Virus record (IMG/VR): IMGVR_UViG_3300020185_002296
Coordinates: 1-36,521 of that record
Direction: 5' to 3' (one strand)
DNA: 36,521 nt
Origin: a virus
Notes under the pieces: generated by a model
Told to the model about the DNA's origin: nothing
Seen by the model: the letters and a program-made list of their open reading frames with translations, nothing else
Database searches by the model: none
Made by a program: the position numbers and the translations under genes
Shown here: positions 1 to 18,584 of the stretch, one piece after another
Layout of the letters: each line of letters starts with the position of its first letter
Numbering within the stretch: position 1 is the stretch's first letter

Positions 1-1023
1 TTTATTTTTTGCACATGTTTTTATACATCTAGGTAAATGTAAATCATTATAAGGATGCCAACTTTCTACTAATAATTTTTTATACCACGGATGTTCTAGA
101 ACTTCATCTATGCTTTTATCTTTTAAGCTATTCCATCCATCGCCTTGTGTAGATAATTTTTCTAATATTTTATCTTTGTTTTCAAGTGTATTATCCCAAA
201 GAAAACAACATGGCCACAAAGTTAAATCATTAGCTATAAAGATTTCTCCCTCGTGTATGTATTTACAAACAATACTATTAGTCACAGAAGTTATTTTTTC
301 TTCTTCGACTTTTGTAGATTTGTATTCTTCGATAAAATCGTCTAATTCTTTTACTACATTTACTTTACTATGTTGCTTTTTACCTGTTGTAGTAATTGTT
401 TTTTCTTCCTGTTTATTTTTTTTGCCTAATTTAACAATCCAATCATGATAACTGTTACGCATACCAGTACGTGTTGCAAATTCAAATCCTAAAGATGCTG
501 CATGTTGTTTTGCAATTTCAAGTTCGTGTTCATTATGATCAAATACAATATAGATCCAAGCACCAGTTTTTTTAGCTGCAACTTTTGCATATGCTTCAAT
601 ATTTCTTTTTACAATATTCCATTTTGTATTCACACGATATATATGATTTGTTTCTTTATGACCATCTATACAGAAATGAATAAAAATATTATCTGGATTT
701 TCTGCTGAAATGCGTCCTAATTCTTCCCACCATTCAGCAGTATTATATCCGCCATTGGTACTAAAATGCACAAAGCCGCCGCAGCTTACAAGGTAACGTG
801 TCATTTCTAAACAATCAGGATTTACAATAGGATCTCCAAGCACTCCACAAAATTTAAATTCTACCCCTGAATAGTCATCAACAGGAAATAGTCTTTGCAA
901 ATCTTGCAATGAAAAACTATTTACTACTAGTTTGTCTATGTTTATTGTTCTAGCACACCCTGGACAAGCAGCATTACAATCACTTGTAATTTCAAGCTCG
1001 ATTTTTTTCAAATCTTTTAACAT
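1..1023 (-). CDS. Radical SAM protein with C-terminal SPASM-like module (partial, 3' end outside window)
   Basis: This reading frame is open from an ATG at 1023 to the left edge, giving 341 visible residues without a stop. The N-terminus has the radical SAM motif C16-x3-C20-x2-C23 (CNAACPGC), which binds the [4Fe-4S] cluster that cleaves S-adenosylmethionine. Instead of the usual GGEP motif it has CGVLGDP. A C-terminal cysteine module follows: C253, x18, C272-C273, then C333 and C337, as expected for a SPASM-type auxiliary Fe-S domain. It is clearly paralogous to the gene ending at 1043, with the same order of parts. The protein is probably nearly complete, since the final cysteines are already present. 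No Shine-Dalgarno sequence precedes the ATG; a TATAAATA box ends only five bases upstream. The substrate is unknown; SPASM enzymes act on peptides or sugars. Confidence 0.85.
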   Translation of the reverse strand, partial: MLKDLKKIELEITSDCNAACPGCARTINIDKLVVNSFSLQDLQRLFPVDDYSGVEFKFCGVLGDPIVNPDCLEMTRYLVSCGGFVHFSTNGGYNTAEWWEELGRISAENPDNIFIHFCIDGHKETNHIYRVNTKWNIVKRNIEAYAKVAAKKTGAWIYIVFDHNEHELEIAKQHAASLGFEFATRTGMRNSYHDWIVKLGKKNKQEEKTITTTGKKQHSKVNVVKELDDFIEEYKSTKVEEEKITSVTNSIVCKYIHEGEIFIANDLTLWPCCFLWDNTLENKDKILEKLSTQGDGWNSLKDKSIDEVLEHPWYKKLLVESWHPYNDLHLPRCIKTCAKNK

Positions 1024-1028
1024 CTAAT

Positions 1029-1040
1029 TATTTATAGCAC
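1029..1040 (-). promoter_or_regulatory. Possible late (TATAAATA) or extended -10 promoter
   Basis: Read on the minus strand, the 19-base gap between two radical SAM genes contains GTGCTATAAATA. TATAAATA at 1036-1029 is an exact match to the T4 late-promoter box. The same bases can be read as an extended -10 (TGC then TATAAA) with no good -35. Either reading puts the transcript start next to the ATG at 1023, which would give an almost leaderless message. In such AT-rich DNA a chance match is possible. Confidence 0.4.
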
Positions 1041-1042
1041 CA

Positions 1043-2122
1043 TTATTTAAATTGTTCAGAAAATGGATCAAACTCAACACCGCACTTCATTGAGCAAACT
1101 TTTAACTTTCCGTTATCACAGCCTGTTGTTTTCCAACTGCGTTCTATGTTATCAAATATACCTGTTTCGAATACAGCCTTCAATCCATTCTTTTTAGCAT
1201 TGATTGCATCTTTGCCGCCTACAGCATCAATAAAGTCCCATATTTGTTCAACCTTTGGATCTTTGTGCCACCACTTGTACATGCGTCCGGCAGTCCAACA
1301 GCAGGGCATTACAAGTCCTTCTGCTGTGATAAACAGACTACCCTCGTCTTTTACCTTGCAGTTAATAGGAACAACATCATAGTATGCATCCATACTACCA
1401 TATTTTTCTAATAGCATATCCTGTTTTGTTAATGCTTTGTTTTGGTACTTTTCATCTGGCTTTTTAAGTTCTGTAGTTTCTTTACCTTTTCGATTTACTG
1501 CTTGATGCGATTCTTTCTTTTTACTATCTGCTGTAATAAATCTACCTGTCTTCTTAGGTATGAATCTTTCACATCCCCATTTTTCAGCAAGTTCCTTTGC
1601 TTCATCTACTTGATGTTGATTGTGTTCGAAAATAAGAAAGTCCCAACGTGCTCTACCACCAGCATCTATAAACGCTCGCATATTGCGTTCTACATTGTTC
1701 CAGACAACACCCTGCCTGTATAGATGATTAGTGTCACTAAGACCATCCACACTGAAAATAACAGCACCCATTCTGCCAAAGACTTGGGCCAATTCACGCC
1801 ACCATGCTTCATCCTTTGCTCCTGCGTTTGTATTCATACTGAGCCACATTTTACTGTTATGCTCTCTAAAGTATTTGAATATATCTAATGTGTCTCTTGC
1901 AACAATAGGATCTCCTAAATTACCACACATGTACATAGTACCTAGCTGTTTGATAAAGTCAGGTTCAAATATACGTTTGCAATCTTCTAGTGTAAGCTCA
2001 CTAAGATCGATATGAGGATTTAAGCCTTCGCCATTCATGTTACGATCACACATAGGACAGTTTGCTTGGCAGTTCTGTGTGTTTTCTAAATGAATTGTTT
2101 TTATATCGTAATAATTGTACAT
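1043..2122 (-). CDS. Radical SAM / SPASM-domain protein
   Basis: This 359-aa protein starts at an ATG directly abutting the previous gene's stop. The radical SAM cluster motif is C18-x3-C22-x2-C25 (CQANCPMC), and CGNLGDP at 66-72 takes the place of GGEP. SVDG at 124-127 fits a later strand of the partial TIM barrel. The C-terminal third carries a SPASM-like auxiliary cluster module: C255, x18, C274-C275, a following tryptophan-rich stretch, then C335, C343 and C347. This is the canonical order, core first and SPASM second, in contrast to the five radical SAM proteins at 7290-13501. A lysine-rich linker at about 200-235 separates the halves. Family members modify peptides or sugar-like substrates. 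Here the neighbours (SGNH hydrolase, sugar dehydrogenase, glycosyltransferases) favour a glycan role, but that is inference. Confidence 0.88.
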   Translation of the reverse strand: MYNYYDIKTIHLENTQNCQANCPMCDRNMNGEGLNPHIDLSELTLEDCKRIFEPDFIKQLGTMYMCGNLGDPIVARDTLDIFKYFREHNSKMWLSMNTNAGAKDEAWWRELAQVFGRMGAVIFSVDGLSDTNHLYRQGVVWNNVERNMRAFIDAGGRARWDFLIFEHNQHQVDEAKELAEKWGCERFIPKKTGRFITADSKKKESHQAVNRKGKETTELKKPDEKYQNKALTKQDMLLEKYGSMDAYYDVVPINCKVKDEGSLFITAEGLVMPCCWTAGRMYKWWHKDPKVEQIWDFIDAVGGKDAINAKKNGLKAVFETGIFDNIERSWKTTGCDNGKLKVCSMKCGVEFDPFSEQFK

Positions 2123-2872
2123 TTATAGATTTTCTAAAATAAACTTGCTTATATTTTTGTTAGTTTCTGTCCCATTATGTTTATCATCGTAAGCCTTATC
2201 AACTTTACTTACATAAGGAACATCATAAAAAATACTATCTTCTTCGTCTTTAGAAAAGCTTATGTTTTTTATACTAAAAGATTTTAACATTTCAAATGTT
2301 GTATCCTTAGCCCACTGAGAATGTGTTTCTATGACATTACCATGTTTTACAAACTGTTCAAAAACAGAAGATCTTTTAATTTTGCGTCTAGTACTTGCTC
2401 TAATATTAAATACACCTGTATGAGGTTCAGTAAATGGTAAGCAGATACGCATATGTTCAGGCCATTGTATTAATACTGCGTCAGGTTTTTTTGGCGAAGT
2501 ATGTAAAAATTTCAAAAGATTCATCATAATAATATTAGAACTGCCGCCGCATATTCCTAAATTATAAGTTTTAATTCCTGTTGCTTCTTCTATCAAATTA
2601 GAATAACGTTCCTCTTCGTGCAAGTAAAGACCATAAGTATTACTACAGCCTAATGCTAGAATATATTTGTCATCATTTTCGAAATCAAATTCGTGTGTTC
2701 GATATCCCATAGAATTTTTATTAAAATAGATAGGATTTTTCTTGTGCAAGGATCTATATTTCCATCCCTCTCCTTGGAGTTTGCGCTGAATCCGCCATCT
2801 TTTTTCATCGTCAGGATGTGGAAAATTTATAGTGCTGTCTTTTTCTCCGCACTTTATTAATTCATATTGCAT
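2123..2872 (-). CDS. SGNH/GDSL hydrolase-like protein
   Basis: This 249-aa protein has the hallmarks of an SGNH esterase/acyltransferase fold. Block I is LGCSNTYG at 74-81, with S77 as likely nucleophile in a GDS-like turn. Block II is NLGICGGSSN at 104-113. A block III equivalent, QWPE at 136-139, replaces the usual GxND, so the oxyanion asparagine is not obvious. Near the C-terminus D229-x-x-H232 (DDKH) supplies the acid and histidine. Such proteins add or remove O-acyl groups on sugars or act as esterases. The ATG overlaps the upstream gene by 16 bases, with GGA eight bases before it. No signal peptide or membrane segment is visible, suggesting a cytoplasmic or virion-bound protein. Its place next to a sugar dehydrogenase and radical SAM genes suits glycan tailoring. 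Confidence 0.7.
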   Translation of the reverse strand: MQYELIKCGEKDSTINFPHPDDEKRWRIQRKLQGEGWKYRSLHKKNPIYFNKNSMGYRTHEFDFENDDKYILALGCSNTYGLYLHEEERYSNLIEEATGIKTYNLGICGGSSNIIMMNLLKFLHTSPKKPDAVLIQWPEHMRICLPFTEPHTGVFNIRASTRRKIKRSSVFEQFVKHGNVIETHSQWAKDTTFEMLKSFSIKNISFSKDEEDSIFYDVPYVSKVDKAYDDKHNGTETNKNISKFILENL

Positions 2873-3306
2873 TTTTCAAATCCATCTTTATAACTGTAAA
2901 AATAATTATTTTTTATATTTTTATTAAAATAATGGCTATAACTATCTTCTGGAAATACCATACTTAAATTTAGTATAACACCATATCTATTATTTTTCAA
3001 CCTTTTTATGTTATTATATATACATCTTCCTAAATGGAATCCACAAAAGTAAGTAGTATTATATAAGGGTAAGTCTTCAATAGTAGTAATTATTTTGCCA
3101 AATGATGTATCAATTTCGTCCATTAATTCTCTGCCACTAGATAGATAAAAAATATCTGCATTTATACTAATTAATTTTATTTGATGATTCAAAAAAGATC
3201 CAAATAATTTGGTTTCTGTCTGTAACCAAGGATATTGTTCTAAGTCTTCCTGCTCACAATTTTTCCAAGCATCTACTACTACTAAACAACTATCGTGTGT
3301 TGCCAT
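2857..3306 (-). CDS. Unknown protein, possibly a degenerate isochorismatase-like fold
   Basis: The 149-aa product is read from the ATG at 3306, chosen because AAGGCGG lies six bases before it; the frame extends further upstream but without comparable support. It overlaps the dehydrogenase gene by 17 bases. The sequence begins with a hydrophobic strand ending in Asp (CLVVVDAW, D12) and later has YFCGFHLGRCIYNN with C95. This layout resembles cysteine hydrolases of the isochorismatase family, with Asp after strand 1 and Cys on the helix after a Gly turn; K71 could be the third residue. The resemblance is weak, the protein is shorter than typical members, and the C-terminus is Asn/Tyr/Lys-rich. 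It should be treated as unknown. It sits in the middle of the glycan-type operon. Confidence 0.6.
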   Translation of the reverse strand: MATHDSCLVVVDAWKNCEQEDLEQYPWLQTETKLFGSFLNHQIKLISINADIFYLSSGRELMDEIDTSFGKIITTIEDLPLYNTTYFCGFHLGRCIYNNIKRLKNNRYGVILNLSMVFPEDSYSHYFNKNIKNNYFYSYKDGFEKCNMN

Positions 3307-4411
3307 ACTGAACCGCCTTATTATTGCCTCTGTAAGTTCTCCATGGATCAAATACTAAAACATTATCTGGTACAGTATCTGTTTCATGCACACGCACAAA
3401 AACTTGTGAATTATGATCAACAATCTGTCCGCCTAGTTCTTTCACATAATGTTGCACAAGTAGGCTATAAGATCCTTCAACATATTCTACATCAGGCTTG
3501 TAACTGTCGCTGCTAAATTGTATTAGATTGCCGTGCTTTAATATTTCTAATGCCATGTTTCGAGCTTGAAGTTCTCTAGCTTCCATAATAGTTCCAAATA
3601 AGTCATAACCTATTCCTAACTCTTTTGCCATATATCTTAATGCAATATTATCACGAGGATGACAAGCACCTCCGTCGCCCATACCTGCCTTCATATACTT
3701 AGACGACATAATTCTATTTGTAGAGTGGGCTAAAGCATCTGTAACAATATCTACATTAATATTGCCCTGTTGTTGTGCAACATCTTGTATCATATTTACA
3801 AGTCCAATTTTTGCACTAATAAATGTATTATAAAATACTTTGATACATTCAACTTCGTCCCATGTGCCTATTACATAACGTGGATTGTTTTCCATGATAG
3901 TTTTATAAAACTCTACAAGTTGCTTTGCATCACCTGTTTCTGTACCGTCTTGTGTGCCAATCATTACCATTTCGGGATTTACCATATCCCATGCTACACT
4001 GCCCATAGCAATAAGATAAGGATTATAAATAAATCGTGTATTTGACACCAGATCTACAAATTGGTTACGCACAGTACCAGGCAATACTGTACTAATAAGA
4101 ACTAACAGTTGATCGTTTGTCATGTGCTTGTTAGCTTCGGTTAGTACTTCTTTTACAATATCGTAGCTAAAATCTTTCGGTTCTAAGTGTGCAGTGGGTG
4201 CTCTGCCATCATAATCCGGATCATGAGGCGTAGGCACAGCAACAAATACTATATCTCTATCTTGTACTGCATCTTTGATAGTGGGAAACTGATCAACATT
4301 ATTAGTCTTACACTTTTTAATATCATAACCCGTTACATCGTGTCCTTTGCTTGCTATAACTTCTGCACACGGTAATCCTAGTTTTCCAAGTCCAATAAAA
4401 CTAATATTCAT
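3290..4411 (-). CDS. Nucleotide-sugar (UDP-glucose type) 6-dehydrogenase
   Basis: This 373-aa protein belongs to the UDP-glucose/GDP-mannose dehydrogenase family, which oxidises a nucleotide sugar at C6 to a uronic acid using two NAD+. It has an N-terminal Rossmann motif GLGKLG (7-12) and VAVPTP at about 57-62. The middle domain signature carries K191 and N195 (ECIKVFYN), and the catalytic site GDGGACHPRD has nucleophile C250 and D254. All expected catalytic residues are therefore present, with PRD replacing the common PKD. The C-terminal domain has YKPDVEYVEGS at 304-314 and FDPWRT near the end, so the protein is somewhat short but complete. The ATG overlaps the upstream stop as ATGA, with AGGG six bases before. 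It likely supplies an acidic sugar nucleotide for the neighbouring transferases. The exact sugar cannot be read from sequence. Confidence 0.88.
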   Translation of the reverse strand: MNISFIGLGKLGLPCAEVIASKGHDVTGYDIKKCKTNNVDQFPTIKDAVQDRDIVFVAVPTPHDPDYDGRAPTAHLEPKDFSYDIVKEVLTEANKHMTNDQLLVLISTVLPGTVRNQFVDLVSNTRFIYNPYLIAMGSVAWDMVNPEMVMIGTQDGTETGDAKQLVEFYKTIMENNPRYVIGTWDEVECIKVFYNTFISAKIGLVNMIQDVAQQQGNINVDIVTDALAHSTNRIMSSKYMKAGMGDGGACHPRDNIALRYMAKELGIGYDLFGTIMEARELQARNMALEILKHGNLIQFSSDSYKPDVEYVEGSYSLLVQHYVKELGGQIVDHNSQVFVRVHETDTVPDNVLVFDPWRTYRGNNKAVQYGNTR

Positions 4412-5553
4412 GTTAATCCCTGCACATATAATGTTAAACTTTCACTTAACCAATGTTTTCTTTGTAAAACAGTGTATAAATTTAAATTGTGTTCTAAAAT
4501 ATCTTGCATTTCTTTACGTATTCTTATAAGATCCGCACTTTTATATTGAGATAATTTTTTTAAGTTTTTTATAATTATTTCTATACGGCTATTTAAATCT
4601 AAATCTAAATCGTAGCCTTCATCCCACCAGTCACTGAAAGTTACAAACCCTCTTGTCCTTAAATCTTGCAATGTACCTGGATTGCCTAAAGTCATAAATG
4701 GCATACCTATTGCAATAGGTTTATACACTTTTTCACTAAAAAATAATTGATCACTTTCAATATTAGATTCTGTATTAAGAAACAAAAAACTTTTAGTGCA
4801 ATGTAATTCAGGAATACTAAAATTAGGATTTATACTAGATAGATCTTCAATATCTAAAACATCGAATGTTTGTTTTTCTATCTTCGTATATGGATTTTTT
4901 TCTTTATACAAACTAAATGCTCCATATACATCTCCCCAAGTATTATACCCGTTTGATAAAAGATTATTATCTATTATTTTTTCCATTAATACGCATCTAT
5001 GATGTCTTGCTACTCTGTTAAAATTAATATATAGCTTGTTAGGTCTGTAATCCAATATAGATTCTTTAGATTTAAAAGTTTCCATCCAGGTATCATTATA
5101 TACTACTGTTAGATTAGGCATATTACTATTAAATTTTTTATTTGCTGTAACTGCTAAAATATCAAATGAAAATTTGTGAGCTATTTCATTTACCGATTCT
5201 ACAAAATGTCTAGAAGTTTCAAACAAATCATATATAGCTAATACTACATTAGACTTTGACAGTAATTCTACATTATCATTAATAAACTTATCAATATGAA
5301 ATTTCCAATTTTCCAGTGTATCTAAACGTTCTGCATGATTATAAAATACAGGAACTATGTAAAAATTATTTTCCGACATTAATAGATCCGACTCGCAACG
5401 ATTAGCTGCCTCAAAAATCATACTAAAATCATTTTTGCTAGAAACATATATTTTTTCATAAGACCCTACAACATTTTCTAAGTTAAGATGAGAAAGTGCT
5501 TGACTGTGCTTATACTGTCTTTCATCTATAATTTTATATATAATCTGTGTCAT
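4408..5553 (-). CDS. Putative GT-B-type glycosyltransferase (SEK motif)
   Basis: This 381-aa protein has a weakly conserved N-terminal half and a recognisable C-terminal half. The best signature is FFSEKVYKPIAIGMPFMTLG at 271-290, followed by a leucine/arginine helix and GFVTFSDWWDEGYD at 302-315. A (T/S)EK followed by hydrophobic residues and P-h-h-h-G is typical of the donor-binding region of GT-B transferases, such as the fucosyltransferase-like GT10 group. The assignment to a specific family is not firm. The ATG overlaps the 78-aa gene by 20 bases and has no strong ribosome site, suggesting translational coupling. There are no membrane segments. Its position next to the sugar dehydrogenase supports a sugar-transfer role. 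It is unrelated by sequence to the four GT-A-like proteins in the window. Confidence 0.55.
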   Translation of the reverse strand: MTQIIYKIIDERQYKHSQALSHLNLENVVGSYEKIYVSSKNDFSMIFEAANRCESDLLMSENNFYIVPVFYNHAERLDTLENWKFHIDKFINDNVELLSKSNVVLAIYDLFETSRHFVESVNEIAHKFSFDILAVTANKKFNSNMPNLTVVYNDTWMETFKSKESILDYRPNKLYINFNRVARHHRCVLMEKIIDNNLLSNGYNTWGDVYGAFSLYKEKNPYTKIEKQTFDVLDIEDLSSINPNFSIPELHCTKSFLFLNTESNIESDQLFFSEKVYKPIAIGMPFMTLGNPGTLQDLRTRGFVTFSDWWDEGYDLDLDLNSRIEIIIKNLKKLSQYKSADLIRIRKEMQDILEHNLNLYTVLQRKHWLSESLTLYVQGLT

Positions 5554-5770
5554 CTAAAATTAAACTTATATTTTTACCTGGACCTGCACGACTAGGTAGG
5601 TCTCCGTATTTTTCAATATACCATTCGATTACAGCACGATACCAATTTTGACTGTTGTGGTGTGCTTGTTTATTGAACTGGTGAATATTATTATTAGTAG
5701 CCTGCATGGTACTAAGTGCTCTTGCACTTTCTTTTTGTAACTCTCTAAGACTTAATTCACTTATATCCAA
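5534..5770 (-). CDS. Small conserved-looking protein of unknown function (TTG start)
   Basis: This 78-aa frame lies between the methyltransferase-like and GT-B-like genes, overlapping both. An in-frame stop sits just upstream, so the first start is TTG at 5770, preceded by AAGG ten bases away. The next Met is at residue 22, which would discard a plausible amphipathic helix (LSLRELQKESARAL). The C-terminal half, with WYRAVIEWYIEKYGDLPSRA, looks folded and conserved. There is no cysteine, signal peptide or leader-like cleavage motif, which argues against a classic thioether RiPP precursor. It could be an adaptor or a small structural protein, and no function can be assigned. Confidence 0.6.
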   Translation of the reverse strand: MDISELSLRELQKESARALSTMQATNNNIHQFNKQAHHNSQNWYRAVIEWYIEKYGDLPSRAGPGKNISLILDDTDYI

Positions 5771-6602
5771 TTTTCATAAACCTTGAGTATTTTTCTAATT
5801 GTAATTCTCCTAAATAAAGACAATTACTCATAGGTGTAGATAAACTAAATTCTTCAGCATCTTTCGAACAATTAACATGTTCTTCTACTTCATAATAGTT
5901 ATTACTTTGTAGTATCACTAGTTTGCCTTGTGGTATTTTTGCATACCAGTTGGCAAAGTTTTCTATATGCTCGCAGCTAGTATTGATAATCGTATTAGGT
6001 GAATCTGTAATAGGATAGCTCATTCTATTGTTAGCATTACTCCAATACTGCCATGTATGTTCATTATAATTTATATCTTGTATATCTTCTACTAATGCTT
6101 TAAATTGCCACTGATTTGTAAACCAAGACTTATTGAAGGTTTCGGCTATGTCAACAGTTGTTTCATCAATATCAAAACTGCGGATTTTATCTACCTTAAT
6201 ATCGTTTTCAAAAATCATAGTAGCAAGTGTAGCATACCATCCTGCGCACAAAAACACAGTGCCGAGATCTACATTACATTTTTTAAGTTCATGCACTAAC
6301 CATAATTTACTTTTTAGTTGTCCTCTACTAAAACAATCATTATCAATATTAGTATCATTTACAAAAAAACTTTTAAAAGCTGGAATAAATTGGGTATTAA
6401 TTTGTTCACTTAATAATGGCCATAACTTCCAGGTATTATCTTCCATTATTAATTTGCGCAGGTCTTCTTTGTTTTTGTCAGTAACTAAGCGGAGTATACT
6501 AGATAAGTCCTTGTCAATATAAGACCTGCGTAAGTCTGCAAGTTTACTTTTAGTAGGAAACAGTAGTTCAAATCTATCTAATAACTCAAATGTTTGCAGC
6601 AT
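5757..6602 (-). CDS. Class I SAM-dependent methyltransferase-like protein
   Basis: The 281-aa product is read from the ATG at 6602, which has AGGAG seven bases upstream; an ATG ten codons earlier lacks such a site. The gene overlaps the preceding one by 17 bases. The middle of the protein fits a Rossmann methyltransferase. Strand 1 and motif I are VFLCAGWYATLA (116-127), replacing the usual GxGxG. The acidic end of strand 2 is SFDID (142-146), and a motif IV-like strand INTSCEHI lies at 206-213. The first 110 residues are helical and have no recognised domain. The acceptor could be a sugar, protein or small molecule; the neighbourhood suggests glycan tailoring. The G-W-Y motif I variant makes the enzyme call less certain than the fold. 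Confidence 0.55.
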   Translation of the reverse strand: MLQTFELLDRFELLFPTKSKLADLRRSYIDKDLSSILRLVTDKNKEDLRKLIMEDNTWKLWPLLSEQINTQFIPAFKSFFVNDTNIDNDCFSRGQLKSKLWLVHELKKCNVDLGTVFLCAGWYATLATMIFENDIKVDKIRSFDIDETTVDIAETFNKSWFTNQWQFKALVEDIQDINYNEHTWQYWSNANNRMSYPITDSPNTIINTSCEHIENFANWYAKIPQGKLVILQSNNYYEVEEHVNCSKDAEEFSLSTPMSNCLYLGELQLEKYSRFMKIGYK

Positions 6603-7269
6603 CAAATTGCTCCTGCAACCATTCAAAGTCATTTATTCTACGCAGATCTTGCGGTGATTGTGTGTGTTTTTCTCCGTATTTTTTGCCTTGAATAGCACCC
6701 TGGATAGCATACTCTCCAAAGTCTCTATCAGAGCCTACCGTAGTCCAAATTTTAAGTCTTGCATTTGTTTCGTCATCTTTTTGTCTATCAATTATTTTTG
6801 CACTTAATTTAGCACACTCTCTAAATGCACTTTTCCATGTTTCAAACGGTGATATATTATATTGTGTAATATTGGATATCTCAGGCATTGATTTAAATTT
6901 ATTTGTAATACTAGTTGTCATATCAGGCTTGCTAGTATCCATGTCAATTGTTGCCTGACGTGGAAATAGTTTTATACCGCCGTAGCCATACACAAGATCA
7001 TTAATAGGGTTTTGACTTCTCCATACATGCACATGATCTAACTGATGATCTGGAACTTTATAATTAAAATTAAAATCATCTACAATTCTTGCATCAGCGT
7101 CTACAATCCAAAACATTTTTGTAAAACATTTTTTAGCCGCTGCAATATGCGCCTGATGTATTCCTTTTACACCATGCACACGCTTTGCAGTTGGAAAATC
7201 TTCTTTTAATCTTTTCCAGTTCTGTTCAGCATTAATTTCTTTGTAACTTATATAAACTATATCATACAT
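6586..7269 (-). CDS. GT-A-like glycosyltransferase, short paralogue
   Basis: This 227-aa protein is a clear paralogue of the gene at 13501-14418. Shared features are DIVYISYKEINAEQNW near the N-terminus, AKRVHGVKG at 28-36, the DAD motif at 57-59 (IVDADARI), YGGIKLFP, and a C-terminal AWR/WKSAFRE-like helix. A DxD-type acidic motif after a hydrophobic strand is how GT-A transferases bind a nucleotide sugar through a divalent metal. The family has no assigned substrate that I recognise. It starts at ATG 7269, 20 bases after the last of five radical SAM genes, and has no Shine-Dalgarno site. A perfect consensus promoter lies immediately upstream, so the message may be leaderless. The two paralogues bracket the five-gene radical SAM array. 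Confidence 0.65.
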   Translation of the reverse strand: MYDIVYISYKEINAEQNWKRLKEDFPTAKRVHGVKGIHQAHIAAAKKCFTKMFWIVDADARIVDDFNFNYKVPDHQLDHVHVWRSQNPINDLVYGYGGIKLFPRQATIDMDTSKPDMTTSITNKFKSMPEISNITQYNISPFETWKSAFRECAKLSAKIIDRQKDDETNARLKIWTTVGSDRDFGEYAIQGAIQGKKYGEKHTQSPQDLRRINDFEWLQEQFDAANI

Positions 7270-7274
7270 ACTTT

Positions 7275-7303
7275 ATTATACTTTATTTTTTATTGTTTGT
7301 CAA
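7275..7303 (-). promoter_or_regulatory. Consensus sigma70-type promoter
   Basis: Read on the minus strand, TTGACA occupies 7303-7298 and TATAAT 7280-7275, with exactly 17 bases between them, matching the bacterial housekeeping consensus at every hexamer position. The predicted start is about 7268, at the ATG (7269) of the glycosyltransferase gene. This would launch a second transcription unit after the radical SAM array. The -35 lies within the end of the preceding coding sequence. Confidence 0.65.
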
Positions 7304-8516
7304 GATATAACCACGGTAGGTATTTTTTTGTATCTTGTTTTCTATAATTGTCTTGTTTTTCAACATGAGCTTTAAACTGTTCTATCTTCATTTTAGGTTT
7401 TGTAGTTTCCATTAAATTAATACATGCAATAAGTTGGTTATAAAGATATGTGTTTCGATCATTTTTCATTTTATCTGCATGTTTAAGTATTTGATTCTTA
7501 AGCTTTTGTTTATGTTTCTTTCTTAATATACTTGTACAAGAATGTGACGGACTATATGGCCAAATAAAATACGGAATAGTTCTAAAATTCTCTATATGCG
7601 AAAACTGATTAAAGTATTTTAATATATCTACAAATCCATGAATTCCGTAAGTTTGAAATACAGTGTGTATTTCAACTTCATAGGTAGGATGATTTTCAAT
7701 TAATTCTATTAGCTTCCTAAAGTTCCTGTCAACAACACTCCATTTGCCTGGATACCTTACATATTCGTATAAATCTCCTACAGCATCTATACTTATATGC
7801 ATACGTACCATTTTAAATTTAGACAATCTGTCAAAAAATTTCTTAGGCATAATAGTTAAATTTGTATGAAACGTAAATATAATATTTTTGCTTAAATCGT
7901 TATTATGTAAGTAATCGCAAAATTCTAAAAAATCATTGTTTAGTAAAGGTTCGCCGCCTGTTACTAGTAATTCTGTAACAGTAGCCGATATTTTATCTAA
8001 TGTTATTTTTAAATTTTTATAAGACCATTTATTATTATCAAGAGGCTCAAAAAATTTATACAAATCATTGTATTCTGTTTCAAGCTGATTTGATGCCCAA
8101 GGACCGCACATTTTACATTGTAAATTACATTTATTGCTCCAAGACAAGTCTAGGCTTTCTACTGACAAATTAATAATTTCTCCAGTTTCTAAATCTGTTT
8201 TATCAGTAAATTTTTCAACTTCAAAAGATTGCATAACACCATTACGAACACTTGTTCCATTTTTATCTTCTATAGAATAACATGCACTACATATATTAGG
8301 CCTCTCGCCATTTAACATTTGTTTGCGTATATTTTTGTAAAAATCTTGATTAAAATAATCTTTAATATTTTTTATTTCATCGATGTATATAGGATTACCG
8401 TCTGAATCTAGTATATCACCACTAGTACTGGTATTACAACAGATTCTCATTCTGCCGTCAGTATGTGTGCTAAAATGTGTCCAGGGATATGGACAAATAA
8501 CATCTTTAGAATTCAT
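7290..8516 (-). CDS. Radical SAM protein with N-terminal SPASM-like cysteine module (array copy 5)
   Basis: This 408-aa protein is the last of five tandem paralogues. The N-terminal module has C8, then C26-C27 after 17 residues, and C76-x2-C79 followed by Tyr. The radical SAM motif follows at C130-x3-C134-x2-C137 (CNLQCKMC), then GGEP at 187-190, which contacts the SAM amino group. HTNL and SIDA strands continue the barrel. The C-terminus is Lys/Asn-rich and lacks a second cysteine module. The ATG overlaps the previous stop as ATGA, with CGGAG eight bases upstream. The cysteine module is the kind that binds an auxiliary Fe-S cluster in twitch/SPASM enzymes, but it sits before the core rather than after. 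Substrate unknown; family assignment is strong. Confidence 0.88.
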   Translation of the reverse strand: MNSKDVICPYPWTHFSTHTDGRMRICCNTSTSGDILDSDGNPIYIDEIKNIKDYFNQDFYKNIRKQMLNGERPNICSACYSIEDKNGTSVRNGVMQSFEVEKFTDKTDLETGEIINLSVESLDLSWSNKCNLQCKMCGPWASNQLETEYNDLYKFFEPLDNNKWSYKNLKITLDKISATVTELLVTGGEPLLNNDFLEFCDYLHNNDLSKNIIFTFHTNLTIMPKKFFDRLSKFKMVRMHISIDAVGDLYEYVRYPGKWSVVDRNFRKLIELIENHPTYEVEIHTVFQTYGIHGFVDILKYFNQFSHIENFRTIPYFIWPYSPSHSCTSILRKKHKQKLKNQILKHADKMKNDRNTYLYNQLIACINLMETTKPKMKIEQFKAHVEKQDNYRKQDTKKYLPWLYLDKQ

Positions 8517-9853
8517 AAATCTAACTCCGGTATGTATTGTTTATGATCAATTTTTCTAAAATTATCTAATACTTTTATTCTATTTTTAAAATTTTCAAAG
8601 TGTTTTTCATTACGAGGAGCTTGTATTTCGTGTATTACTAGATCTATTTTATGAACAATTTCAGGAAACTCTTTAAGTATTAATGAGTTTTTCTTATATT
8701 CTTCTAATCTATCTATTGCAAGTGTTTTATTTCTTTCAGAAAGATTATTTACTGCCTGTCCTTCTGGAAAGTAAAGTAAGTTTATGTTATACGGCCATTC
8801 TTTGAAATACGGATATTCTGTACTTTGTTCTTCTATCCAATATAACAAATCAGTTAAATTTAATACATTTAATAAATTTACTGTGATATTAGTTGTTAAT
8901 TTAACATTATTAGCACTTAAATATGATTTTGCTTTTTTATAATTAGTCAAAAGTGCCGGCCACTTACTAGGAAATCTACAATATTCTTGAACTTTTTCCG
9001 TACCATCAATACTAGCAATAAGTTCAAACTTTTTAAAATGTGGCATAAAGTCTAGAAAACTCTGATGTATGTTTGTTAAATTAGTAGCAACATGTACGTT
9101 AATATTTTGACTTAATCCATTATCAACTGCATATTGTAGTGCTTTGCTTACCCAAGGCATTAACGGTGGTTCGCCTCCGGCAAAACTTAATGTTTCTATG
9201 CCAGGTAATATTTTACAGAAACTATTCCATATGTTTTCGTCATCACTCCAGTCTGGAACATCTATTCCTGCAAAATCTTTGTTGTTTTCTATTATGCCAG
9301 GCTTGTCTGATATCTTCTCAAATCTTCCTGTATTAACTTCAATTCCGCCATGTGTTTTTGCAAGTGCTTTTAATTCTTTTGCTATCTGACTGCTGTCATA
9401 ACTGTTGCACATTACACATTTTAAGTTACATAAGTTGTTGGGTTTTAGTTCCAATCTCTTCGGTGTCTTATCAGAGTGTCCGTTGTTGTCTAGTGTTTCG
9501 CTTACTCTGTTTAAAACTTCTCTATCATTTTTATATTCATTAACAGACCGTTGCCTCATACTTGCAATGCCATCTCTATAACAAATGTCACACGCAGATA
9601 ATTTTTCACCTTTATACATTTTAGTTCTAATATCTTTTAAACTATTACTGTTCCAAACTTCTTCAAACGTATTACCGTGGGATATAACAAACTGATCATC
9701 AACGCCGCTATCGAGCTCTGGTTTTAATGTGTCAGCATAATAGCAGCAAGGTTTTACATGTCCTGCAGGATTAGTGCTTAGTTCTAAAAAAGGATAAAAA
9801 CAAAAAGTATCACTTTCGATTATTTCTTTACGTAACTTATCTATCTTATCCAT
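8513..9853 (-). CDS. Radical SAM protein with N-terminal SPASM-like cysteine module (array copy 4)
   Basis: The 446-aa product is read from the ATG at 9853, which has GGAG seven bases upstream and overlaps the previous stop by eight bases; a TTG further upstream would add 23 unsupported residues. The cysteine module is C18, C36-C37, C88-x2-C91-Tyr, with the conserved EVWNS element between. The radical SAM motif is C142-x3-C146-x2-C149 (CNLKCVMC), with GGEP at 226-229. SIDG and NLTNI-type strands follow. It is especially close to array copy 1 around the cluster motif (both have SSQIAKE just after it), suggesting those two are more recent relatives. It is the longest of the five, with an insert between the CxxxCxxC motif and GGEP. 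The reaction is unknown. Confidence 0.88.
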   Translation of the reverse strand: MDKIDKLRKEIIESDTFCFYPFLELSTNPAGHVKPCCYYADTLKPELDSGVDDQFVISHGNTFEEVWNSNSLKDIRTKMYKGEKLSACDICYRDGIASMRQRSVNEYKNDREVLNRVSETLDNNGHSDKTPKRLELKPNNLCNLKCVMCNSYDSSQIAKELKALAKTHGGIEVNTGRFEKISDKPGIIENNKDFAGIDVPDWSDDENIWNSFCKILPGIETLSFAGGEPPLMPWVSKALQYAVDNGLSQNINVHVATNLTNIHQSFLDFMPHFKKFELIASIDGTEKVQEYCRFPSKWPALLTNYKKAKSYLSANNVKLTTNITVNLLNVLNLTDLLYWIEEQSTEYPYFKEWPYNINLLYFPEGQAVNNLSERNKTLAIDRLEEYKKNSLILKEFPEIVHKIDLVIHEIQAPRNEKHFENFKNRIKVLDNFRKIDHKQYIPELDL

Positions 9854-11105
9854 TATATTGCTCCAATATATCGTGAAACTCTGAAAATGTATCTTGGAAA
9901 CTTGTGTTTCGAATCTTATCAAGGCCTTGAATATAATCTAGGTATTGCGGATATAAATCTGATAAGTCTTCTTGATACATAAAATCTATTTGATGAGATA
10001 TTTTTTCATTCCATTGCTTGTTGTCGGGCAGTTTTAAGCTATCCCATTTGTCTTTTATTTTATCTTTTATTTCTTTAGGAAACATTTGTGTACAAAGATA
10101 TCTCGGCCAATGTACTGTTCCTGCATGAAATAATCCATTATGGTGCTTTATACCTATTTTTTTAAAGTTTTGTTCAAGTAACGATGTAGCAAAGTCTGGA
10201 ATATAAAATATATTCATTGCATGTACTGTGCAAAGTATTTTTACTTCAATATTATCAGGTGTATTATCTAATATATTTAGATTTTCTTGTATAACCTTCC
10301 AGTCAGCAGGGTATCTTACATAATCATGATGTTTGCTCCAAGCATCCATACTAATCATTAGTTCTACATATCCAAACTCTTTCCAAAGTTCTAATACTTC
10401 TTCTGGCAATACTGTGCCATTTGTATGATATCTAAGATTAATATGCTTACTATGTCCTGTCTCTACAAGTTTTCGTAACATTCTATGATGTTCTTTTATA
10501 AGCAGAGGTTCGCCGCCGGCAAAAATCATATGACGTATGTTTGCAAACATAGGTTCAAAGTCTTGCCATAGTTTTTCTTTTTTGTACCATTCGAACTTTG
10601 TAGTATCAATTTCTAGTTTGTGCTTCCAATCCCACTTTGCATCTGACTTTAATTCTTCTGCTAGTTTTTTAGCAGGATTTAACCACATACTGCTGTCTTG
10701 AGGCCTACACATTACACACTGTAGATTACAAGTATTGCCTAATCTAAAGTCTAGTGTTACTAAATCTTCTTCTAGTGTGCCGTCTTCTTGTGTAGATTCA
10801 ATTAAACTGTTGATTTTATCTTCGCCTAGTTCTCTAGTCCATAATGTATTTTCATTAATACGGTGGCTGCGGATACCTGCTGATTCTTCTTTATAGCAGT
10901 GTTCGCATGCCATGACTTTTTGTCCGGACAACATCTTTTTTCGAGCATCTTTCCAATGTTCGCTGTTCCATATTTCACTTACTGTTTGATCATTTAGATT
11001 GTGCTTGTAACTGTTTTTAGCAACACAGCATAGTAAGGCACTACCGTCAGTCCATGTAGCCATATGTGTCCAGGGTAAAACGCAAAATGTTTTTGATTCA
11101 GTCAT
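9846..11105 (-). CDS. Radical SAM protein with N-terminal SPASM-like cysteine module (array copy 3)
   Basis: This 419-aa protein starts at ATG 11105, overlapping the upstream gene by eight bases, with GGA six bases before. Its cysteine module is C8, C26-C27, C67-x2-C70-Tyr, with EIWNSEHWKDARKKML between the pairs, close to the IWN...R..L pattern of SPASM domains. The radical SAM motif is C126-x3-C130-x2-C133 (CNLQCVMC), with GGEP at 197-200. Downstream strands include HTNGTVLP and SMDAW. The C-terminal region ends in a conserved-looking helix (LDKIRNTSF) also seen in copies 1 and 2. All five cluster and auxiliary ligands are intact, so it is expected to be an active enzyme. The substrate is unknown. 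Confidence 0.88.
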   Translation of the reverse strand: MTESKTFCVLPWTHMATWTDGSALLCCVAKNSYKHNLNDQTVSEIWNSEHWKDARKKMLSGQKVMACEHCYKEESAGIRSHRINENTLWTRELGEDKINSLIESTQEDGTLEEDLVTLDFRLGNTCNLQCVMCRPQDSSMWLNPAKKLAEELKSDAKWDWKHKLEIDTTKFEWYKKEKLWQDFEPMFANIRHMIFAGGEPLLIKEHHRMLRKLVETGHSKHINLRYHTNGTVLPEEVLELWKEFGYVELMISMDAWSKHHDYVRYPADWKVIQENLNILDNTPDNIEVKILCTVHAMNIFYIPDFATSLLEQNFKKIGIKHHNGLFHAGTVHWPRYLCTQMFPKEIKDKIKDKWDSLKLPDNKQWNEKISHQIDFMYQEDLSDLYPQYLDYIQGLDKIRNTSFQDTFSEFHDILEQYNG

Positions 11106-12219
11106 TTAAATTCCATATCTCTTTAAAAGAAGGTACCATTTCTAAAAAGTTTAAGTTTCGTTCTTTATCTAGACTACTAATATTTTCTTTTACTAGCTGC
11201 CAGCTATCTATTCGATCTTCGCTTAATCTTTCGATTGTAACTTTGTAAGGATTATCAATTATAGCATAGTTATAGTCTAAATTCAACCGATTAAATTTTT
11301 CTATAAGATTATTTTTGGTACTATTAGGTAACGAACTTAGTTGTTGCCAATGAGGCCATCTAATCCAATCCCATTCTACCTTCCACAAAGGCAAATTATT
11401 ATGTATATAATCTACCAATTTATCTAGTTCTAATACATTAACTAAATTTACTACAGTGTGAATAATGAAATGCACATTACTTTTATGTTGCCACCATTCT
11501 TCAAATGTTTTAATTATCGAAATACAATCATCAAACTTAGAAGGCCATCTATACCAATCGTTTGCAGTATATATACCGTCCATGCTTACACACAAATATA
11601 CATTATTACATTGTTCAATTAAATCTTTTAGTTCTTGATCAGGTAATATAGTTCCGTTAGTACAAATTTGTAAATTTACTTTAGTTAAATCTAAACTACG
11701 TAACAGTTTCTTAAATTTAGCACCTTCCATAAAAGGCTCGCCGCCTATAATCTTTAGATCAGTTACAGATGATAAATCCCACTTTTCAAAATCAAAATCA
11801 TTTTTTAAAAATCCCTTTGTTTCTACTCTATTTGCTTTTTTATCTTCAGCTTGCCATTTACTACTAAAAAATCCACTACAATGCGCACATGCTAAGTTGC
11901 ATAGATTGCTAAAACTTACTTCTAATTGTTGTACAGGCACAGTTTTATTTTCAGTAGGTGTAAATTTTGAAAGACTATGCTGTCTCATACTACGCAAGCC
12001 GTTGCGCTCATCTTGATAGCAGCCATGACAACCTTCTACAGGTTCTCCGGATAACATTTTATCTCTAATGTCTTTCCAATGTTCTGTGTTACGCACACGA
12101 TCATTCCAAACGTAACTATCTTCTTCGTCGATGTGAGGATATCTACAGCAGGGTATTGTTAAACCGTTTGGCCTAATAGCTGCTGCAAAAAAAGGATATG
12201 AACAAATAGTCTTATTCAA
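11098..12219 (-). CDS. Radical SAM protein with N-terminal SPASM-like cysteine module (array copy 2, TTG start)
   Basis: This 373-aa protein is the shortest of the array. An in-frame stop lies two codons before the TTG at 12219, and no ATG occurs before the conserved first cysteine, so TTG is the start; AAAGGA lies eight bases upstream. The module is C6, C24-C25, C64-x2-C67-Tyr, with the radical SAM motif C107-x3-C111-x2-C114 (CNLACAHC) and GGEP at 159-162. CTNGT and SMDG strands follow. It overlaps the upstream gene by eight bases. The third cluster cysteine is preceded by Ala-His rather than the Arg/Lys/Val-Met seen in the others, making it the most divergent copy. A rare start codon within a coupled operon may lower its output relative to the flanking copies. 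Confidence 0.86.
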   Translation of the reverse strand: MNKTICSYPFFAAAIRPNGLTIPCCRYPHIDEEDSYVWNDRVRNTEHWKDIRDKMLSGEPVEGCHGCYQDERNGLRSMRQHSLSKFTPTENKTVPVQQLEVSFSNLCNLACAHCSGFFSSKWQAEDKKANRVETKGFLKNDFDFEKWDLSSVTDLKIIGGEPFMEGAKFKKLLRSLDLTKVNLQICTNGTILPDQELKDLIEQCNNVYLCVSMDGIYTANDWYRWPSKFDDCISIIKTFEEWWQHKSNVHFIIHTVVNLVNVLELDKLVDYIHNNLPLWKVEWDWIRWPHWQQLSSLPNSTKNNLIEKFNRLNLDYNYAIIDNPYKVTIERLSEDRIDSWQLVKENISSLDKERNLNFLEMVPSFKEIWNLND

Positions 12220-13501
12220 TGCCTAGTTCCTTTGCAAGATCAGGAATAGCATCTTTAAAACTTTCGTTTCTAGTCTTGTCTAGCATACGAGTATAATTTA
12301 AAAAGTTTTTCATTAGTGTTTCATGATCTTGATGCTGTTCTTTACGCATTAGATTAATAATACCCTGAATTGTGGTTTTAATTCTTGGTTCATTTAATAA
12401 TTTACCTTGATACAACTCTAAATTAAGTGCAGCCTTTTCTCTAATATGCTGCGGTAGTATTGTTACATCTAAGTAAAACGGATGATCGTTTATTAAATAG
12501 TCAATGCCGATCGGTCTGTTGTATTTTTCACTAATAGAATCTACATAATATAGCATATTATGACAATCTAAAACATTATAAGTTTGTACAACTGGCGAAA
12601 CGTCTAAATTAACATTTTTTAGTTGTGCAATCTTTTGAAAATTTTCATCAATTTTTTCCCACTTACTGGGCGAGCGTATATAGTCATTTACTTTTTGATA
12701 GCCATCTAGACTGCAATTGATTTTTATGTTAGAAAACTTACTAATTAAACTTAAAAATTTATCAGTTACATTTGTGCAATTAATATTAAAAAATATTTCA
12801 ATCTTATCTTGATATCCTGCTGCAACTATTTCTTCCATAAATCTATAATTATTGTTTATAAGAGTAGGCTCGCCGCCGGTCATATAAACTTTACTTAAAT
12901 TTGGAATAAGCCCTATAATTTCATTCCATAAAAAGTTACTATCAAAATTTAAGTCGCTATCTTTTAAGAAAGTAGGATTTGGGCCCCAGTTGTTATTCCA
13001 AAATTCTTTGTATTCTTCACTTTTTTCGTATGAGCTAAAGTGTTCTTTAGCAATTTGACTGCTATTAAACGGATTACACATACGACATTTGAGATTACAC
13101 AAGTTTCCTAGTCTAAGATCTAAATATACAGGTGGTAATTTTACTTCGTAGTTATTTTCTTTTGCACTATTAATAAAGTTGTGCAGTTCGGGTCCTAGTC
13201 TATTACGCCACTCAGCAGTCATTCTAGTTCTAAAGCTATCTAAGCCTATACTTTCTTGTTTGTAACAATGCTTACAAGCTTCTACTTGAACACCATTGAG
13301 CATATCTTTTCTAGCATCTTTAAAAACTTTACTATTCCATGCATCTTCTACACTGTTTTTGCCAACCATCATAGGAGATCCATCTGCATTACGTGCAAAG
13401 GCTGTTGGACCACTGGCAATGCAGCAATAACGCATTTTACCATCAGTGTTTAACATAGTACTAATAAATGGCATAGCACAGAAGGTTTTTGATTTTCTCA
13501 T
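12212..13501 (-). CDS. Radical SAM protein with N-terminal SPASM-like cysteine module (array copy 1)
   Basis: This 429-aa protein opens the array. Its ATG shares one base with the previous TAA (TAATG), indicating translational coupling. The cysteine module is C8, C26-C27, C76-x2-C79-Tyr, with AWNSKVFKDARKDML between. The radical SAM motif is C135-x3-C139-x2-C142 (CNLCN-type region, CNLKCRMC), followed by GGEP at 209-212 and a SLDG strand. The C-terminal part has a helix with MLDKTRNESF, related to that of copies 2 and 3. The overall build matches proteins often labelled twitch-domain radical SAM in marine viral sequences, whose reactions are not established as far as I know. It lies directly behind a GT-A-like gene. 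Confidence 0.88.
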   Translation of the reverse strand: MRKSKTFCAMPFISTMLNTDGKMRYCCIASGPTAFARNADGSPMMVGKNSVEDAWNSKVFKDARKDMLNGVQVEACKHCYKQESIGLDSFRTRMTAEWRNRLGPELHNFINSAKENNYEVKLPPVYLDLRLGNLCNLKCRMCNPFNSSQIAKEHFSSYEKSEEYKEFWNNNWGPNPTFLKDSDLNFDSNFLWNEIIGLIPNLSKVYMTGGEPTLINNNYRFMEEIVAAGYQDKIEIFFNINCTNVTDKFLSLISKFSNIKINCSLDGYQKVNDYIRSPSKWEKIDENFQKIAQLKNVNLDVSPVVQTYNVLDCHNMLYYVDSISEKYNRPIGIDYLINDHPFYLDVTILPQHIREKAALNLELYQGKLLNEPRIKTTIQGIINLMRKEQHQDHETLMKNFLNYTRMLDKTRNESFKDAIPDLAKELGIE

Positions 13502-14418
13502 TACTTTTCGATATCTATAAGTTTTCTAGAATTTCTAGATGGATTTTGGTAAACTGATTTAAAGAATCTACTTTGTTGTGCATTTAACGGCTGTTCTGCA
13601 ATAGGAATGTTTAGTTCGTTAATTAATTTAATTCCATATTCTTCTATTTCATAATCAACATCTTCAATTGATTCAAAAGACACTTTCCATAAATTATTTA
13701 AGTATTCAAAATCTCTCACATTTATAAAATCCCAGTCTGTACACATTGTCATATACAACCCTGCCCGAGCACCGAGTATTGCCCATTCACCATGTTCTGC
13801 ATCAGCACCTATCATTAACCAAATATATAAACGTTGTAAATTTTTCCAATGTCCTTTTACTAAATCATATTTGCTAGTACGTACACCTTCGTTCAGCGTC
13901 ATCTTAACACCTTCACGGAACCCAGCACGCCAGGCTTGCTGCGGTGTTTCATTATTATGTACAGTTGAAAAACAACTATTTTGTTGAATATAATTTAAAT
14001 CCCAGCAAAAGTCTACTTGTGCATGTGGGTTATCGTCTGGAGCATTTTCATGCGTTTTCATATTAAGAACATAATCTTTAGGCCAACATTTAATGCCGCC
14101 ATTACCGTACATTAACCCGTTAATTATATTTTTACCGCACCAACTTATTACACTATTTTCTAAATTAGATAATTGATCAAACGGTATTTCTTGATTTATA
14201 AACGAACCATCTATTTTATTATCAGCGTCTACAGTAATAAAACGATCTGTTTCACTTAGATTAGCGCAGGCTTTATGTGCAGCGTCTGAACCTTCTACAC
14301 CGTGTACACGTTTAGCCCAAGGAACTTTCTGACATAAGTCTGCATAATTCTTTTCTGCATTCGGCTCATCGTAGCTTAGGTAAATGATATCACAGTCTGC
14401 TACTCTAAAGTTATTCAT
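13501..14418 (-). CDS. GT-A-like glycosyltransferase, long paralogue
   Basis: The 305-aa product starts at ATG 14418, chosen because AAAGG lies six bases before it and because its paralogue at 6586-7269 begins at the same point; upstream in-frame starts would only add about ten residues. It overlaps the previous stop by eight bases. Conserved parts are DIIYLSYDEPNAEKNY, AKRVHGVEG (35-43), the putative metal/nucleotide motif DAD at 64-66, YGNGGIKCWP, and AWRAGFREG. This pattern fits a GT-A nucleotide-sugar transferase. It is about 80 residues longer than its paralogue, mostly at the C-terminus. It is coupled to the first radical SAM gene by a one-base overlap. Donor and acceptor are unknown. 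Confidence 0.65.
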   Translation of the reverse strand: MNNFRVADCDIIYLSYDEPNAEKNYADLCQKVPWAKRVHGVEGSDAAHKACANLSETDRFITVDADNKIDGSFINQEIPFDQLSNLENSVISWCGKNIINGLMYGNGGIKCWPKDYVLNMKTHENAPDDNPHAQVDFCWDLNYIQQNSCFSTVHNNETPQQAWRAGFREGVKMTLNEGVRTSKYDLVKGHWKNLQRLYIWLMIGADAEHGEWAILGARAGLYMTMCTDWDFINVRDFEYLNNLWKVSFESIEDVDYEIEEYGIKLINELNIPIAEQPLNAQQSRFFKSVYQNPSRNSRKLIDIEK

Positions 14419-17267: not shown

Positions 17268-17293
17268 ATATTTCTCCATATAGCTGTAGTTAC

Positions 17294-18530: not shown

Positions 18531-18555
18531 AAAACTTCTCCAATTCCTACTATAT

Positions 18556-18584
18556 TATATAGCACATTTTATAGCATATGTCAA
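18556..18584 (-). promoter_or_regulatory. Sigma70-like promoter upstream of the 398-aa structural gene
   Basis: On the minus strand TTGACA lies at 18584-18579 and TATATA at 18561-18556 with a 17-base spacer; TATAAT two bases later gives an alternative -10. A TGC directly before the -10 makes it an extended -10 type. Initiation near 18549 would give a leader containing GGAG seven bases before the TTG start. It is unusual among the tail genes, two of which instead have a late-type box in the upstream gap. Confidence 0.55.

Follow-up and report, generated by a model that had tools for sequence, protein, structure and literature searches.

The window analysed here is a 36.5-kb virus record of IMG/VR (IMGVR_UViG_3300020185_002296, 36,521 nucleotides), in which a cassette of radical S-adenosylmethionine (SAM) genes, genes resembling glycosyltransferases (GTs) and a relative of the nucleotide-sugar dehydrogenases lies beside the tail-fibre region of a phage. 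Every gene discussed is encoded on the minus strand, and the letters A to N are labels of this analysis. In the direction of transcription, starting from the fibre side, a virion protein of 3608 amino acids (aa) is followed by a gene for a 200-aa protein, five further genes and then the cassette itself, which begins with N_120 and continues through M, L, K_278, J, T5-T4-T3-T2-T1, I, H, G, F, E (the dehydrogenase), D, C, B and A. Ordered by window position, the features are:

1..1023, minus strand: A, radical SAM protein cut by the window end, no stop codon (PF04055 27 bits, below cut-off; phrog_21308 E 5e-15)
1043..2122, minus strand: B, radical SAM protein of 359 aa (PF04055 above cut-off; phrog_21308)
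2123..2872, minus strand: C, SGNH-hydrolase-like protein, uncertain (DUF6473 and another family, both below cut-off; GxS-type motif by eye)
2857..3351, minus strand: D, 164-aa protein (no family match)
3290..4411, minus strand: E, UDP-glucose/GDP-mannose-dehydrogenase-like protein, Tyr132 replacing the presumed catalytic Glu (PF03721, PF00984; phrog_9148 E 2e-91; active-site survey)
4408..5553, minus strand: F, putative GT-B-like protein (no Pfam, PHROG or PDB match)
5534..5770, minus strand: G, 78-aa conserved protein accompanying radical SAM protein B (alignment, neighbourhood counts)
5757..6632, minus strand: H, putative methyltransferase-like protein (conserved family; no Pfam match, no convincing PDB relative)
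6586..7269, minus strand: I, GT-A-like protein of 227 aa, paralog of J (33% identity to J in family alignment A3)
7290..8516, minus strand: T1, N-twitch radical SAM protein (NF033640 305 bits)
8513..9853, minus strand: T2, N-twitch radical SAM protein, likely ATG start at 9853 (NF033640 314 bits)
9846..11105, minus strand: T3, N-twitch radical SAM protein (NF033640 386 bits; model with predicted local distance difference test score, pLDDT, of 93.1)
11098..12219, minus strand: T4, N-twitch radical SAM protein (NF033640 232 bits)
12212..13501, minus strand: T5, N-twitch radical SAM protein, partner of T3 (NF033640 354 bits; pairing)
13501..14448, minus strand: J, predicted GT-A-fold protein of 315 aa (model pLDDT 87.4; Z about 10 to GT-A enzymes)
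14411..15247, minus strand: K_278, 278-aa protein (no family match above cut-off)
15247..16092, minus strand: L, tentatively GT8-like, 281 aa (family A4; weak glycogenin match)
16079..16924, minus strand: M, tentatively GT8-like, 281 aa (family A4, D104 and D106 invariant; weak glycogenin match)
16917..17279, minus strand: N_120, 120-aa conserved protein bordering the cassette on the fibre side (found again with M and L in related loci)
17334..25065, minus strand: five genes separating the cassette from the large virion protein (three at 19530-25065 with tail-fibre/virion-protein matches, two at 17334-19519 without match)
25693..36519, minus strand: very large virion structural protein, 3608 aa, 5' end open (phrog_10938 E 4e-116; tblastn to jumbo phages)

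Between N_120 and A there are 18 junctions, 15 of which overlap, one has a spacing of 0 and two are separated by 19-20 nt; as gene starts were mostly placed at the first possible start codon, the extent of overlap is perhaps overstated. Together with the fibre-matching genes that adjoin the cassette, this packing bears out the coupled operon beside tail-fibre genes described in the original prediction, which had been made from the sequence alone. The seven CxxxCxxC genes it had counted in positions 1-13501 are likewise present; it had called all of them intact, and six are complete, while A reaches the window end without a stop.

PF04055 matches all seven radical SAM proteins and scores above cut-off in five. 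T1-T5 are members of NF033640 (N_Twi_rSAM, N-terminal-twitch radical SAM), with 232-386 bits against a cut-off of 170 bits, and share both features of that family, the N-terminal cysteine (twitch) domain and the CxxxCxxC motif. A (26 bits) and B (43 bits) fall below this cut-off and match phrog_21308, 'radical SAM'; the best 80 relatives of B are 76-100% identical to it. Eight cysteines (C8, C26, C27, C67, C70, C126, C130 and C133) are invariant across T1-T5 and 31 T3-type proteins, and the SPASM-like PF13186 matches the N-terminal part of T2, T3 and T5 above cut-off. No NCBIfam equivalog model exceeded its cut-off for any of the seven proteins among the matches listed, and no substrate of the NF033640 family was found in the literature listings searched. 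In each enzyme the CxxxCxxC cluster would cleave SAM to a 5'-deoxyadenosyl radical that abstracts a hydrogen from the substrate, and an auxiliary Fe-S cluster would sit in the domain formed by the N-terminal cysteines.

T1, T2, T4 and T5 are 26-31% identical to T3. In a phylogenetic tree of 486 proteins, built from the five window proteins and 481 non-redundant relatives out of 791 collected, the array genes fall into five separate clades, each with phage and bacterial-bin members, with local supports of 0.998 for T1, 0.999 for T2, 0.99 for T3, 0.964 for T5 and a weak 0.66 for T4. A recent tandem duplication was therefore rejected as the origin of the array, since each gene belongs to a clade of its own. 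Cultured phages contributed three records matching T3, at 27-28% identity. The predicted model of T3 (pLDDT 93.1) was compared with the PDB and retrieved BlsE, anSME, MoaA, DesII, viperin, sactipeptide maturases and SkfB at Z 11.3-12.4, amongst them BlsE at 12.4 (rmsd 3.9, 218 aligned), anSME at 12.2 (4.2, 220), MoaA at 11.7 (4.8, 218) and DesII at 11.4 (4.6, 227); a sequence profile of T3 gave SkfB (E 3e-9) and BlsE (E 1.5e-8) as top matches. BtrN and NeoN are likewise sugar-acting radical SAM enzymes, of a type that oxidises or epimerises a sugar or cyclitol. T3 appears to have the same radical SAM core fold as the sugar enzymes BlsE and DesII, while T1-T5 differ from these four enzymes in carrying the auxiliary cysteine domain at the N-terminus and in showing no membership at the sequence level. 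To NF033640 they belong by curated score, and what is seen here in addition is a conserved pairing of T5 with T3.

In order to follow the cassette beyond the window, IMG/VR was scanned with the N-twitch profile, radical SAM protein B and the dehydrogenase, the best 80 of the relatives listed per query giving 240 loci, or 177 after merging of overlaps. Before counting, loci sharing a 200-base stretch were merged with the longest kept, and loci shorter than 15 kb were dropped for gene-content counts, leaving 53 of 73 N-twitch, 36 of 50 B and 35 of 58 dehydrogenase loci; as they were fetched with cassette proteins, best 80 each, co-occurrence is conditional on the query. A T-type radical SAM gene, meaning one with its best blastp match to T1-T5, is present in 34 of the 35 dehydrogenase-fetched loci, together with I in 22, a B-type radical SAM gene in 21 and J in 16, and among the 37 fetched viral loci that extend at least 5 kb to either side of the dehydrogenase, 32 have such a gene within that distance of it. 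The 36 loci fetched with B contain G (35), H (33), I (32), J (21) and the dehydrogenase (8), and the 53 fetched with the N-twitch profile contain H (40), I (27), J (20) and the dehydrogenase (6). J is accompanied by L in 47/49 cases and L by M in 42/42. In control loci fetched with a capsid gene, the window genes tested occurred in 0/19 of at least 15 kb and in 0/80 overall, so that family scores and co-occurrence against this control place the cassette beyond chance. It is modular, because the GT-like scaffold and the radical SAM genes recur widely and the dehydrogenase comes and goes.

The gene-neighbourhood search proposed with the original prediction thus recovers radical SAM genes at nearly all dehydrogenase loci, but the full five-gene array on two contigs only, G001 and G002, because none of the other viral loci fetched showed a T1-type gene. 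On the near-identical G002 (47,971 bases) the order from J to A is repeated at 92-100% protein identity with the dehydrogenase present, and beyond A there follow more radical SAM genes and other tailoring genes. The sister contig G001 carries the whole array at 97-99%, but has only a weak 30% match to the dehydrogenase. NF033640 matches above cut-off number at least six on G002 and at least 11 on the related 256-kb contig G006, one of these with an internal stop; counting weak matches, the totals range from 4 to 17, among the matches listed, across 18 related contigs chosen for carrying the genes. On the near-identical contig L334 (347-9251), the island continues past the window with a radical SAM gene, two TauD dioxygenases, a sulfotransferase, a desaturase-like protein just below cut-off and two Asp/Arg-hydroxylase-family proteins, one of them also just below cut-off. 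Cassette-like gene runs were also observed on L261, L262, L283 and L307, contigs assigned to Neisseriaceae, Rickettsiales, Gammaproteobacteria and Chloroflexi metagenome-assembled genome (MAG) bins, which may be phage contigs in bacterial bins.

Within the array, the association of T3 with T5 stands out. For pair counts, loci sharing a 200-base stretch were merged, keeping the member with most T genes, and T3 to T5 was taken as the less biased direction. On the same strand and no more than 1.5 kb away, T5 accompanies 20 of 23 phage and 10 of 12 bacterial T3 genes, whereas T1, T2 and T4 each accompany just 2-3 of the 23 and 0-3 of the 12. T2 is found with T1 in 4/4 bacterial and 2/5 phage cases, and T1 with T2 in 4/11 bacterial cases. 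That two radical SAM proteins have stayed paired across lineages this far apart may point to a common reaction or an exchange of electrons, so that T5 and T3 may work together; for PapB, intermolecular electron transfer is argued (PMC10470005). No report of the T5-T3 pair was found in the literature searched.

The bacterial loci, again from a list of the best 80, are mostly on contigs labelled as Bdellovibrionota-type MAGs, and among 144 genomes of the phylum to which the L248 genome belongs, 41 carry an NF033640 member above cut-off. Within 6 kb of the ten bacterial pairs there is a carbamoyltransferase-like gene in three, a class-V aminotransferase in three and a GT2 gene in two, with none of the genes sought in four; in two Bdellovibrionota loci, two GT2 genes are followed by the T3-T5 pair. 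The 20 phage pairs have, over the same distance, a short radical SAM gene in 12, Y453 in 11, H in nine and I in nine. Dense expansions of N-twitch radical SAM genes occur in Bdellovibrionota MAGs (L269, L270, L253), with 26-37 family matches per genome, weak ones included, in G022-G024. Two Bdellovibrionia MAG contigs, L256 and L258, carry J, I, an N-twitch radical SAM gene and radical SAM gene B together, with 44-49% identity for J, I and B, an arrangement that, judged by these similarities, appears to be a bacterial version of the phage scaffold. A protein of 1178 aa on L024 (14005-17541) has a B12-binding radical SAM C-terminal part and an N-terminus that resembles Y453 by eye.

The dehydrogenase matches both Pfam domains of UDP-glucose 6-dehydrogenase (UGDH), PF03721 and PF00984, above cut-off, and reaches 147.8 bits with TIGR03026 (nucleotide sugar dehydrogenase), under the cut-off of 189.8. 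It had been predicted to retain all catalytic residues, which the active-site survey contradicts: Tyr132 occupies the position of the NPEF Glu in GDP-mannose dehydrogenase (1mfz), a residue that we take to be catalytic in the UGDH family. Tyr132, Lys191, Asn195, Cys250, His251, Arg253 and Asp254 are each found in 76 of 76 distinct viral homologs from 68 distinct loci, a count that describes the protein's own subfamily because the homologs were fetched with the window protein; Tyr132 is also found in one homolog from a bacterial-bin contig. Homologs from Bellamy, HTVC008M and AG-345-E15 have NPY and LR756502 has NPF, and two more distant phage homologs, SP-15 and P-TIM68, keep the Glu (NPEF). 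Gene E thus shares with the UGDH family (phrog_9148) the NAD and central domains and the active-site Lys, Asn, Cys and Asp, but differs in the exchange of Glu for Tyr (Phe in one homolog) and in a GDGGxCHPRD motif in place of a GFGGSCFPKD-like one. In Synechococcus phage Bellamy the same subfamily lies in an operon with epimerases, a nucleotidyl transferase, two GTs and a carbamoyltransferase, and in Pelagibacter phage HTVC008M in one with a GT and a carbamoyltransferase. A 246-aa gene upstream of some phage dehydrogenases was considered as the NadE-like protein of Bellamy and HTVC008M and rejected, as the fetched loci gave no match at the limits used. We found no report of a Tyr-variant dehydrogenase in the literature searched, no search having had the Tyr variant as its sole target.

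Of the four GT-A-like genes originally placed in positions 1-13501, only I (6586-7269) lies inside, and the other three occupy 13501-16924; none of the four proteins has a Pfam match of its own. J is predicted to adopt a GT-A/nucleotidyltransferase fold: its model (pLDDT 87.4) aligns with GT-A enzymes at Z of about 9-10, with B4GALNT1 at 10.2 (rmsd 3.0, 141 aligned), and the aspartates D74 and D76 of a D-x-D motif are invariant in the family alignment. The nucleotidyltransferases IspD and MobA also score 8.4-9.1, so that J is a candidate GT by its fold. The top Foldseek match of J is the peptide S-glycosyltransferase ThuS (E 1.2e-4), one of 29 family members has a weak GT2 match, and cultured phages gave no match. 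L and M match the glycogenin profile weakly (E 0.11-0.2), and the 28 members of their family gave no Pfam GT match. No convincing PDB relative was found by sequence for J/I, H or F. G is 68-81% identical in 20 aligned relatives and conserved along its length without a variable core; it lies within 4 kb of radical SAM gene B in 44/44 cases, and B homologs of at least 60% identity have G in 36 of 38. Is G a dedicated partner or a substrate of B?

The closest relatives of the phage itself are jumbo phages, Vibrio phage 2.275.O among them. By tblastn, the first half of the 3608-aa protein matches jumbo phages, 2.275.O and Escherichia phage 121Q for example, in 57 records that are all below 60% identity and cover at most 20% of the query; gp23 is present in 13 of the 18 related contigs, and the capsid protein of G006 is nearest to those of Sinorhizobium phage Phosso and 2.275.O (70%), followed by Erwinia phages and Serratia phage BF (65.5%). 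The cassette DNA has no near match among sequenced phages. The 3608-aa protein was also considered as VrlC, in line with a pelagimyophage reading; a 2506-aa part of it had no significant match to a 796-aa part of Mosig VrlC, and this identity was dropped since virion proteins of jumbo phages match instead. All three fibre-like proteins (19530-25065) have the same N-terminal matches, phrog_14394 and phrog_15511, and may therefore share an attachment domain.

Comparable islands are already known in other phages. Pelagimyophage host recognition clusters are described as variable islands lying between VrlC and gp14; they resemble the window in combining fibre genes and GTs with cassettes of radical SAM genes, and UGDH is one of the lipopolysaccharide-related genes that are usually, not always, present (PMC7029224). 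At the edge in the window, by contrast, stands a jumbo-phage virion protein without match to the part of Mosig VrlC tested. Campylobacter phages CP220 and CPt10 are described as carrying 11-12 radical SAM genes each, five in one exchangeable cluster (PMC2853527), and thus share with the window a five-gene cluster and neighbours noted as sugar transferases, two genes beside it being annotated as NDP-sugar (nucleoside diphosphate sugar) transferases. Their radical SAM proteins are distant, with no match to T3 and 22% identity to B, an amidinotransferase is present, and no UGDH is annotated in the stretch seen. For Campylobacter phage IBB_35 a radical SAM gene and a UDP-glucose dehydrogenase are reported (PMC3322345). 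Pelagibacter phage Mosig and Vibrio phage K566 have radical SAM-containing clusters, those of Mosig annotated as molybdenum cofactor biosynthesis enzymes, and K566 has an annotated PagP (lipid A acylation; L327, 20718-21167) about 6 kb from its cluster. No paper treating radical SAM, jumbo phage and glycosyltransferase together was found in the literature searched. The combination that had been singled out as notable therefore has precedents in its abundance of radical SAM genes, and it is the T5-T3 pair and the altered dehydrogenase that look new.

The reading we favour, with somewhat more belief than doubt, is that this marine jumbo-type phage carries, in its tail-fibre region, an exchangeable accessory island whose products synthesise or decorate a surface glycoconjugate, located either on the envelope of the host or on the fibres of the virion. 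It is preferred because GT-like genes, an NDP-sugar-dehydrogenase relative and radical SAM genes recur together in related phages and because two cultured marine phages carry the dehydrogenase subfamily in sugar-gene operons. In this island the transferase-like genes M, L, J and I with their small partners would be a fairly constant scaffold, into which the conserved pair T5-T3, here extended by T4, T2 and T1, would have been inserted, along with the altered NDP-sugar dehydrogenase module and the oxidative tailoring genes downstream of the window. Recurrence thus keeps the originally proposed virus-encoded glycan pathway as the best reading, and an action of the radical SAM enzymes on sugars is plausible. 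Several observations weigh against it. The predicted fold of T3 is about equally close to sugar, peptide and nucleotide radical SAM enzymes. The dehydrogenase lies within 6 kb of T5-T3 in only two and J in eight of the 20 phage loci, the pair being more often near X311 (16/20) and an Asp/Arg-hydroxylase-family gene (14/20), and J, I, L, M and the dehydrogenase are found at that distance in 0/10 bacterial loci; by these neighbour counts the pair belongs with tailoring genes in general and not with the dehydrogenase in particular. Lacking the Glu of its known relatives, the dehydrogenase may not form a uronate. L, M and F are putative GTs and H is a putative methyltransferase, the homology in each case being weak or absent. 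Finally, only three of nine longer contigs picked by capsid gene alone have an NF033640 protein above cut-off, so that the family is not universal in the lineage.

Improbable, but deserving attention, is the alternative that the radical SAM enzymes modify a peptide or protein of the tail fibre or host surface, like the SPASM/twitch maturases of ribosomally synthesised and post-translationally modified peptide pathways, with the GTs acting separately or glycosylating the modified protein. The PF13186 matches of T2, T3 and T5, the ranking of anSME, SkfB and other sactipeptide maturases alongside sugar enzymes, the ThuS match of J and the constant company of G and B would all fit it; yet the operon, with gaps of 20 nt at most, seems to leave no space for a separate precursor reading frame, and G, the only short candidate looked at, is conserved throughout instead of having a variable core. 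Somewhat less probable still is a lipid-linked or natural-product-like small molecule, whose acyl, amino-acid or lipid A part would be tailored by the radical SAM enzymes, hydroxylases, dioxygenases and desaturase. The tailoring genes past the window on the near-identical contig, the recurrence of the Asp/Arg-hydroxylase family beside T5-T3 and the PagP annotated in K566 speak for this, whereas in this phage group GT-like genes are often found next to the island's other genes and in tight linkage, and the 20 window proteins scanned include no recognisable acyltransferase or carrier protein. A boost to the metabolism of the host, possibly when oxygen is low, has been proposed for CP220/CPt10 (PMC2853527); as the role of the present enzymes it would suit the oxygen-sensitive chemistry in general, but we regard it as very improbable given the missing equivalogs noted above and the fibre-side position of the cassette with its GT-like genes.

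The glycoconjugate island also allows a bolder version, which we put forward as speculation with the odds against it: T5 and T3 would be the two enzymes of an undescribed radical SAM machine for editing a glycoconjugate, common to diverse phages and to Bdellovibrionota, and the Tyr-variant dehydrogenases of phages would halt their reaction at the aldehyde or thioester stage, or divert it there, and so feed in a sugar unknown from bacteria. If the island works as proposed, it would give a function to the N-twitch radical SAM enzymes, which NCBIfam names by their domains alone, and would imply that phages put surface chemistry together out of interchangeable modules. Being small and expressible, the T5-T3 pair and the Tyr-variant dehydrogenase open this question to direct testing.

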